DNA of 64,000 bases. Origin: Thermoplasmata archaeon. Lineage in GTDB: Archaea; Thermoplasmatota; Thermoplasmata; Thermoplasmatales; Thermoplasmataceae. The notes beneath the pieces are model-generated. The model had not been told where the DNA came from and did no database searches. It saw only the letters and a program-made list of their open reading frames with translations. Of this stretch, positions 50,421 to 54,456 are shown piece after piece. The stretch is from assembly GCA_021797355.1 (NCBI GenBank), contig JAJZZX010000004.1, forward strand, positions 62,001 through 126,000, given 5' to 3'. Within the stretch, counting starts at the first letter, position 1. Each line of letters begins with the position of its first letter. A program made the position numbers and the translations under genes.

Positions 50421-50873
50421 ATGGTAGACAAAAAAGATGAAACGGAAGAGAAAAAGGACATCTCGGTAAAAGGCGTCAGCAGGGATATCTATGCCAAGGT
50501 ATTACGACTTGCAAAAGAAACAGGGAAAACCTTGGGTGAAGTGACAAATGATGCATACAAAACATTTCTCGCCACGGCTTCGAGCGCAAGACAGATATCG
50601 AGAAACTTTGTTGAAGGCGCCACTCAGGGACTGCCACGATACGTGGAGAATATCAAGAATCTAACGATTGAGAAGAATGATCTGAAAGAAATTGGCCACA
50701 GAGTTGCATTCAGGAACATAGATAACCTTGAATTCAAAAACATTGACAATGAGACCTTCGAGGATTATGTAGAATCAATAACAAATGTAAAAAATCTTAA
50801 GATTCCTAAGGCAGTGAGCAAGGCGAAAGTCCTTCTCAAATGCAACTTCGTGGACAACATTGAAGTGTCGTAA
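50421..50873 (+). CDS. RHH-type DNA-binding protein with an unusual C-terminal repeat domain
   Basis: A 150-residue protein. After a charged N-terminus (MVDKKDETEEKKD) comes a ribbon-helix-helix-like unit (DISVKGVSRDIYAKVLRLAK, then TLGEVTNDAYKTFLAT). The C-terminal half repeats short strands (IKNLTIEKND, VAFRNIDN, LEFKNIDN, NVKNLKIPK), suggesting a small beta-helix. I do not know the family. It is leaderless by TATA spacing and has a perfect palindrome in its promoter. Divergent from the Rieske operon, which it might also control. Confidence 0.7.
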   Translation: MVDKKDETEEKKDISVKGVSRDIYAKVLRLAKETGKTLGEVTNDAYKTFLATASSARQISRNFVEGATQGLPRYVENIKNLTIEKNDLKEIGHRVAFRNIDNLEFKNIDNETFEDYVESITNVKNLKIPKAVSKAKVLLKCNFVDNIEVS

Positions 50874-51233: not shown

Positions 51234-51827
51234 TCAAGGTTTTGGAGTCGGAGCCTGCAGGATTGCGCTGACACCTTCCCTAAAAAGTGAAATGGCATTT
51301 TCTGCACTCTCTCCAAGCATAACGCTTAAGAGAATACCATTGTGAAAGGCAATAAGCTTCTTCGCCACTATTTCTGGATCCGGGCTATTAGAGACCAGCC
51401 CTAGTTTTTTTAGCTTTGAAATGAAACTGGTTAGTATGCTTACATAGCCATCGTAGCTCTCCACAAGTATCTTTTTGATTTCCGGGCTTTTGTTGATTTC
51501 TGCCATGGCTACTATCCAGTGAAATTTGACATAATCAGGGAGGCTTAGTTCGTTTACGATAAAATTCTCAATTCCTTTGGAGATATCGCCATCGAATGCC
51601 TTCTGCATTGTGCTTTCCAATATAGTCATGTTTCGCCTGCATGCTTCGGCAAGTAGAGCCGCCTTGCTTGGGAAATACAGGTAAAGAGTTCCTTTTGTTA
51701 CTCCTATATTTCTTGCAATTTCATCCATCCCTGTGTCTTGAAATCCAGATTTAAAGATAAGCTTGGATGCAGATTCCGTTATTGTTTCTCTTGCCTGATT
51801 CCTGTAGTCAGGAACAACCTTTGGCAT
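51234..51827 (-). CDS. TetR family transcriptional regulator
   Basis: A 197-residue repressor-type protein. The N-terminal helix-turn-helix is classical: GMDEIARNIGVTKGTLYLYF (about residues 33-52), followed by an all-helical ligand domain. It is divergent from the SDR gene; an 18-bp palindrome between the SDR TATA box and start is the likely operator. Its own TATA element (51849-51860) lies on the other side. TetR proteins usually release DNA on binding a small hydrophobic molecule; the ligand is unknown. Confidence 0.93.
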   Translation of the reverse strand: MPKVVPDYRNQARETITESASKLIFKSGFQDTGMDEIARNIGVTKGTLYLYFPSKAALLAEACRRNMTILESTMQKAFDGDISKGIENFIVNELSLPDYVKFHWIVAMAEINKSPEIKKILVESYDGYVSILTSFISKLKKLGLVSNSPDPEIVAKKLIAFHNGILLSVMLGESAENAISLFREGVSAILQAPTPKP

Positions 51828-51848
51828 CTTCTTGTATTATCAATTAGC

Positions 51849-51860
51849 TTAAATTATTAA
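51849..51860 (-). promoter_or_regulatory. TATA box of the TetR gene
   Basis: The minus strand reads TTAATAATTTAA, centred about 27 nt before the ATG at 51827, consistent with a leaderless transcript. Confidence 0.5.
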
Positions 51861-51877
51861 CTACAATTGGTTTTAAT

Positions 51878-51895
51878 ACTGAATGGTCATTCAGT
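51878..51895. promoter_or_regulatory. TetR-type operator overlapping the SDR promoter
   Basis: ACTGAATG and CATTCAGT are perfect 8-nt arms around GT. The site begins at the end of the TATA element TTTTAATA (51871-51878) and ends 3 nt before the ATG at 51899, which is also the predicted transcription start. Protein bound here would block RNA polymerase, a typical repressor arrangement for the adjacent TetR gene. Confidence 0.75.
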
Positions 51896-51898
51896 TTT

Positions 51899-52876
51899 AT
51901 GTCCAATCATTCGGATGATCCGATTCTGAACAAGGATTCCGTTCATGTGGTGTTCGGTGCTACAGGCGCATATGGATACTCTGTGACAAAGAAACTCATC
52001 CGGAAGGGGTTAAATGTTTTGGCAGTTTCGAGAAATGCTGATAAGGCCAAATTCATGTTCCCAGGTGGCACCCGACTGGAAACTACGGATGTATTCGATA
52101 AGCAAAGAGTTAGAGAGATTTGTAAAGATGCATCCGTGATTTACTTTGGCATAAATTTTCCCTATGGGGAGTGGAAAATGAAATTCAGGGAAGCCCTGGA
52201 AAACATATTGCATGCTTCATGGGATAGTAGGCCCACGTTTGTGTTCCCTGGAAATGTATATGGATACGGTGAATTTGAGTACACTCCAGTAAATGAAGAG
52301 CATCCACTGAATGCTTCCACTGTAAAGGGGATGTTGCGGAACCGCATTGAAATGGAACTGCTTAAGTTACACTCAAACGGGAAAATAAATCTGGTTCTCC
52401 CTCGGTTTGCAGATTTTTATGGGCCAAATGTTACGAATGACCTTTATGGCGCATTGTTCAGCAATGCAATTAAAGGAAAATCTGTATTATGGCCCATTAA
52501 TGCTGATACCCCACATTGCTTCACCTTCATTGAAGATGCAGCAGAAGCCACCCTGTTCCTGCTCCAAGACCGAACATCCTATGGCAATGTATTTCATGTA
52601 TCAGGTCCTGTCACCACGGCCAAGAGATTCATAGAGACAATTTTTTCATCACTTAATGCGAGACCTAAAATAAGAATTGCATCAAAGCGTTTCTTGTCTA
52701 TTTTGGGAATATTCAATCCGGATGCAAGGGAACTTTTGGAACTTCTCTACGAATATGAACGGCCTTACATAATAGATGATACCAAATTTCTAAGGCGTTT
52801 TCCCTCTTTCAAGCATACTTCATACGATGAAGGCATCAAGATTACGCTTGATTGGTTCAGAAAGCATACAGTTTAA
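51899..52876 (+). CDS. NAD(P)-dependent epimerase/dehydratase-like SDR under TetR control
   Basis: A 325-residue extended short-chain dehydrogenase-like protein. The Rossmann motif GATGAYG (about 22-28) binds NAD(P). VFPGNVYGYGEFEYTPVNEE carries the Tyr position of the catalytic motif, but the usual YxxxK is not clear (next region TVKGMLRNRIEMELLKL). EDAAEATLFLLQD is the typical later motif. Substrates may be nucleotide sugars or aromatic compounds; TetR control with a tight operator suggests an inducible detoxification or catabolic role. The transcript is predicted leaderless. Confidence 0.85.
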   Translation: MSNHSDDPILNKDSVHVVFGATGAYGYSVTKKLIRKGLNVLAVSRNADKAKFMFPGGTRLETTDVFDKQRVREICKDASVIYFGINFPYGEWKMKFREALENILHASWDSRPTFVFPGNVYGYGEFEYTPVNEEHPLNASTVKGMLRNRIEMELLKLHSNGKINLVLPRFADFYGPNVTNDLYGALFSNAIKGKSVLWPINADTPHCFTFIEDAAEATLFLLQDRTSYGNVFHVSGPVTTAKRFIETIFSSLNARPKIRIASKRFLSILGIFNPDARELLELLYEYERPYIIDDTKFLRRFPSFKHTSYDEGIKITLDWFRKHTV

Positions 52877-52942: not shown

Positions 52943-54273
52943 TCACCTGGTTCTCCTGACCGCATGCAAATAAATCTCCCTGAACTCCCGGGAGGCAACG
53001 TTATGATCAATAATGGGCTGCGGGTAATCCTTAACGCGGTAATACATTATATTATGTATTACATATGGCTCTATTTCAGCAAGCTCTTCGACCTTACTCC
53101 TTATGTATGAACAATCCGGATCTAGGCGCCGCTGCTGAATCCAAGGGTTAAAAATCCTGAAGCCACCCCTGGGATCGGTACCAGTCGATGCAACCCATTG
53201 CCAGTTTCCATTGTTTGATGCTGGGTCATAATCAATCAGTTTCGTGGCAAAATACTGCTCTCCAATCCGCCAGTCGGCATGAAGATCCTTGACCAGGAAT
53301 GACGATACCACGAGCCGCAACCTGTTTTCTATGAAGCCTGTTTTATTCAGTTCCCTTATTGCGGCGTCAACAATTGGGAAACCTGTCATGCCGTTTTTCC
53401 ATGCATCTATCATGGATCGGTCATTCTGCCAGGCGAACTTGCCAACCCTTTTGTTAAAAGGTTGCGTGATTGCCTGCGGGAAGTGATAAATTAGATATAG
53501 AAAGAAATCCCTCCAGTACAGTTGCCGGATCAGCTGCTCTCCCCCCCCTGAATTCGCTTGAATGCGTTATAGACCTCACGTACTGAAAGCGTACCAAATT
53601 TTAAATGGGCAGAAAGCCTGGTATTTTTGCTTGCACCAATAATTCCTTCCTTAGTGGGCTCATTCTCCATGCTCTCCCGCACATAACTATCAAGCATCAT
53701 TAATCCATCTTCCCTTCCCCGTGGCTGGGGCTCCCTGGAAACAGCCCCGCCATCAGAAAATTTGCACAGGTTATTCCAGCGTACATCGGTGACAGGATTT
53801 CTGACTTCTGTCTTCAGAGCCCTCCTGTAAAATGCGGTGAAATTTGTGAAGTAGTTTCCACCCTGGCTTTTAATTTCTGGATCGGACAGCATATAATCAT
53901 CATATGCTTTTATGCCAACGCCAAATTTTGAGGCAGCAACGGCAATCGCGCTGTCCCTGCGCTTCGAAAACGGCGTATAGTCCCTATTGAAGAATATATC
54001 TTCCACTGGATATTTCCGAATCACCTCGAGAACATTAACCACTGGATCACCACGAAGTACCAGAATATCCTTCCCCTGTCCCTGCATGTACAAGCGCAAT
54101 GCGTCCAGGGAATCCATCATGAAGTCTCTTGCCCTAGGGCTGAAATACGGATTCTGTTCCTGCTGCACAGGGTCCAGAATAAAAACAGGTAGGGTTTCAC
54201 CGGAGTTGGTGGCCCAGGTAAGGGCCGTATTATCAGTGATTCTCAGATCACGCCTGAAAATGAACAAGTTCAT
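52943..54273 (-). pseudogene. phrB: class I DNA photolyase split by a frameshift in a G8 run
   Basis: Two frames together encode a full photolyase of about 443 residues. The first (from ATG 54273) has FIFRRDLRITDNTALTWA, then GNYFTNFTAFYRRAL and NTRLSAHLKFGTLSVREVYN, and runs into a stop after IQGGESS at 53530. With one extra base in the run of eight G (plus-strand C at 53541-53548) the frame continues EQLIRQLYWRDFFLYL, then WKNGMTGFPIVDAAIREL, NRLRLVVSSFLVKDL and the FAD-site DPASNNGNWQWVASTG to 52943. Everything else is intact. Either a recent inactivation, a phase-variable tract, frameshifting on the slippery run, or a sequencing error in a homopolymer. The photolyase repairs cyclobutane dimers with blue light. 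Confidence 0.9.
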
Positions 54274-54456
54274 TAATTTGTAAAAGGCTGCATGATGATA
54301 TTGTTTTGTCACTGCATTTTTGCAATTTTGCCTGGCTGGGGATCCAATTTCATCTGATCCCTGCCATTCCTCGTGGCATAGAGTGATAGCAGATGCAGGA
54401 GCCATTTAGTTGCATAATGTTTATAATATGATAGATTTCTTGGAGGGTAGCATCTC

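Follow-up and report, generated by a model that had tools for sequence, protein, structure and literature searches.

A photolyase gene split between two reading frames at a run of eight G in a Thermoplasmata archaeon

A 64,000-nucleotide stretch of contig JAJZZX010000004.1 from a Thermoplasmata archaeon (GCA_021797355.1), which we refer to as the window, carries on its minus strand a photolyase gene whose two halves lie in different reading frames (Table 1). The N-half starts with the ATG at 54273 and opens with MNLFIFRRDLRITDN, the usual photolyase start; an in-frame ATG upstream, at 54405, is all that gives the ORF a longer start. Its frame meets a stop just past the G8 tract, which leaves a C-terminal end of QGGESS. 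The frame of the C-half is open from the tract to a stop of its own and encodes EQLIRQLYWRDFF onward, with its first in-frame ATG, at 53413, already inside the FAD domain. The gene as assembled is therefore not one continuous reading frame, and the lesion at the tract is present in the assembly sequence. These features agree with the original prediction, which placed the interruption at a run of eight G and noted that one added G restores a single frame of 443 residues. Removal of two G also yields a single frame, of 442 residues. Beside the photolyase gene, at 51234-52876, lie a TetR-type regulator and a divergent NAD-epimerase-like gene, with a GC3 of 0.41 versus a median of 0.51, which were possibly acquired. 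A 150-residue ORF at 50421-50873 has no Pfam or NCBIfam match.

Table 1. Features of the split photolyase locus, in window positions
Feature	Position	Strand	Basis
Photolyase gene, split in two frames	54273 to 52943	minus	Sequence read on both strands
N-half ORF: photolyase antenna (alpha/beta) domain and linker, 247 aa	53530..54273	minus	PF00875 match; PDB 2e0i_A
G8 tract (C8 on the plus strand), site of the frame change	53541..53548	minus	Sequence reading
C-half frame: full FAD-binding/catalytic domain, 198 aa and stop	52943..53539	minus	PF03441 match; PDB 2e0i_A
Segment RESMENEPTKEGIIGA in place of the Y-x3-R-[DN]-x-P motif	53632..53679	minus	Alignment with relatives

By domain content, the locus belongs with the class I-type DNA photolyases. 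The N-half matches PF00875 (DNA_photolyase) at residues 3-155 (E 3.1e-33), and the C-half matches PF03441 (FAD-binding) over profile positions 2-201 of 203 (E 6.6e-67), but in the other frame. For both halves the best PDB match is 2e0i_A (E 2.8e-30 for the N-half and 1.3e-61 for the C-half), the photolyase of Sulfolobus tokodaii, which is the best solved relative of each. The window copy shares its domain order and retains its motifs YWRDFF, NRLRL, DWRIGE and NNGNWQW (FAD site, tryptophans). Unlike the S. tokodaii enzyme, it is split over two frames, and the Y/F-x3-R-D-x-P segment before TRLS has been replaced. The break thus lies immediately ahead of the catalytic FAD domain, and translation of the sequence as it stands would yield an antenna fragment. 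The strong photolyase matches of both halves in different frames are the part of this arrangement that goes beyond chance. The G8 tract, the longest G/C run in the window, by itself does not: shuffled sequences gave 2.19 +/- 1.81 such runs per window, with at least one in 85 of 100 shuffles.

The original prediction also held that both halves keep all recognisable photolyase motifs and that no other lesion is visible. Neither half was seen to contain a stop or a second frame break, and to this extent the claim holds, but one motif is gone. Aligned with 81 relatives, the window copy has RESMENEPTKEGIIGA, a slightly longer and unrelated stretch, where the relatives carry the near-invariant Y-x3-R-[DN]-x-P motif a short way ahead of TRLSAHLKFG. 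The Tyr and the Pro of the motif each occur in 80 of the 81 relatives, and the window has Glu and Ile at these positions; the Tyr corresponds to a residue of the E. coli enzyme that contacts FAD. A hidden local double frame shift was considered as the cause of the loss and rejected, since the three frames, read by eye, gave no sign of one. The number of near-invariant columns broken in the window copy (9 of 109) is about that of relatives (8 in G022, 7 in G093 and 10 in L003), so the copy is not in general decay. The motif loss is an oddity separate from the frame break and probably older. Codon-usage scores are positive for each half in its own frame and negative in the other frames, and both GC3 and codon use of the two halves fall within the range of the genome. 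Old decay, as might be revealed by a faster-evolving N-half, was likewise rejected, the N/C divergence ratio of 1.59 being an ordinary proportion. Given normal codon scores, GC3 and divergence, any frame break would be recent, or not real.

Of 117 genomes of the order, only 11 have the photolyase domain. Six of these 11, all from a single genus, carry a second and more distant type whose frames are open and 435-457 residues long. The remaining five copies are nearer the S. tokodaii type, and three of them are broken: that of the window and those of G022 and G046. The copies of G039 and G093 are open, the latter only as far as its contig end. G022 and G093, which are family-mates from one other genus, are the nearest relatives found, with C-halves 59-69% identical and N-halves 38-40% identical to those of the window. 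Neither has a G run, in contrast to the window copy, and G022 is broken at two other places, by compensating single-base frame breaks at about 1017 and 1124 of L002 (G022:C3); the conserved stretch that separates them lies in another frame. These breaks could be sequencing errors. In G046, which belongs to the same order, the FAD domain lies in three frames and NNGNWQW is destroyed (L005 1500-1910; G046:C1:3359-3770), making this copy a clear pseudogene.

Comparison with relatives offered no counterpart of the tract. No photolyase match occurs in the four other genomes of the same genus, two of which possess the neighbouring permease gene without a photolyase beside it, and a scan of viral contigs found no relatives. 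Over the 66 bases that precede the LYWRDF motif, 77 of 78 relatives have no G/C run longer than four, and the remaining one has a run of six. The G8 tract is thus a singleton, unique to the window copy, and represents neither a conserved switch nor a conserved site of slippage.

The reading that we prefer, with a probability of roughly 0.5, is that a photolyase of the S. tokodaii type was recently inactivated by a single indel, in a gene that the organism could dispense with. The G run would have changed in length by one or two bases, and this would have inactivated the enzyme. Ribosomes would then produce a 247-residue antenna-domain fragment and stop, and the catalytic FAD domain, in the other frame and with no usual start codon before 53413, would not be made whole. 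The gene is patchy in the order and has been broken independently in other members, so that many of them can apparently do without light repair. Precedent exists in Sulfolobus acidocaldarius, where the photolyase gene Saci_1227 functions in vivo, can be disrupted in the laboratory and leaves a viable strain when disrupted (PMC3139894). We infer that the indel is genuine and has become fixed, and that the gene was functional until recently. The genome yielded neither a second photolyase nor a UvdE match and would, if the loss is real, be left without either. Against recent loss, a whole gene would be just as likely to have normal coding quality on both sides, a lone indel in the window's longest G/C run is also the error that sequencing or assembly most often makes, and the breaks in G022 could be errors of this kind too.

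Such an error, with the true tract differing in length and the photolyase whole and working, is the main alternative, which we rate somewhat short of even odds. It would account for a single homopolymer indel that is a singleton among homologues, in a gene with no other frame lesion and codon use that is still normal. A survey of frame transitions in prokaryotes (PMC3711429) regarded singleton frame breaks as likely indel mutations or sequencing errors, and conserved clusters as recoding, phase variation, coupling or pseudogene families. The window photolyase does not differ essentially from the singletons of that survey, each a single non-conserved frame break with intact homologues elsewhere. 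The behaviour of G runs across the genome speaks against error. Runs of at least seven G number 36 in the genome, and five of these are of eight; none reaches nine, since each eight-G run yields exactly two overlapping matches in a search for seven G. Among the 31 runs examined (all five G8 and 26 G7), only the photolyase is broken. The other four G8 runs break no frame and are located in pelota-like, oxidoreductase-like and peptidase-like genes, names that we assigned from reading the sequences and that are presumptive, and in a small or intergenic ORF. A coding-score test applied to each run missed the photolyase run itself, and unclear runs were therefore also read by eye. A site flagged as a possible break, L138, proved to be an ordinary operon overlap. 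With the other examined runs intact, G runs are not generally wrong in this assembly, nor do they form a set of switches. Error is further opposed by the existence of a real photolyase pseudogene in the order (G046) and by the absence of the near-invariant Tyr-to-Pro motif from the window copy. The genuine pseudogene and the sound G runs elsewhere are what lead us to favour real loss slightly over sequencing error.

The original prediction had listed four options, a very recent break, a phase-variable switch, a translational slip site and a sequencing error; the first and last are favoured here, and neither phase variation nor programmed slippage finds support in the occurrence of the tract among relatives, in the other long G tracts examined or in RNA structure downstream. 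Programmed or tolerated slippage, in which RNA polymerase or the ribosome slips on the G run and some full-length enzyme results, is unlikely. Eight G are slippery in principle, and some slippage at a low level would come as no surprise; either a -1 slip of the ribosome or the addition of one base to the RNA would act in the right sense. Nevertheless, none of the 78 relatives checked has a comparable tract, no frame break is conserved at the site, and RNA structure downstream is not beyond chance (z = -0.03 in a simple, pseudoknot-free fold). A phase-variable switch, with changes of tract length between generations turning the light-repair enzyme on and off, is very unlikely: the tract does lie within the gene, and a single step would open the frame, but a run of eight G is expected by chance, relatives lack it, the other tracts examined in the genome form no gene-disrupting set, and a repair enzyme inside the cell is not among the usual targets of phase variation, which are mostly surface-exposed (PMC3711429). 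We accordingly consider it distinctly unlikely that G8 is a genuine on/off or slip control by which a fraction of cells or transcripts makes full-length enzyme and light repair is bet-hedged. A search of the literature on poly-G phase variation found nothing on an archaeal photolyase.

The name 'DNA repair photolyase' is also applied to radical-SAM proteins. A gain of a gene so named in Ferroplasma, Acidiplasma and Picrophilus (PMC10354927) was not used as evidence here, the name being ambiguous.

As it stands, the photolyase break is an ordinary single-indel break. Its value is modest, as a further case of repeated photolyase loss in an archaeal order where few genomes have the gene and several of its copies are broken. 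Were sequencing reads to contain mixed tract lengths, the locus would instead be an archaeal repair-gene switch, and an unusual one.

The wider assembly was screened for frame breaks by codon usage, in a 348 kb sample of the 1.74 Mb and with a strict form that detects 36% of simulated one-base deletions. The screen flagged 14 places, including the photolyase, several of which resemble normal overlapping genes; the assembly may have a low background of frame errors. Elsewhere, near position 7697 of L109 (minus strand, on its own contig C8), a regulator-like ORF ends beside a membrane-protein frame close to a five-G run, possibly another frame break.
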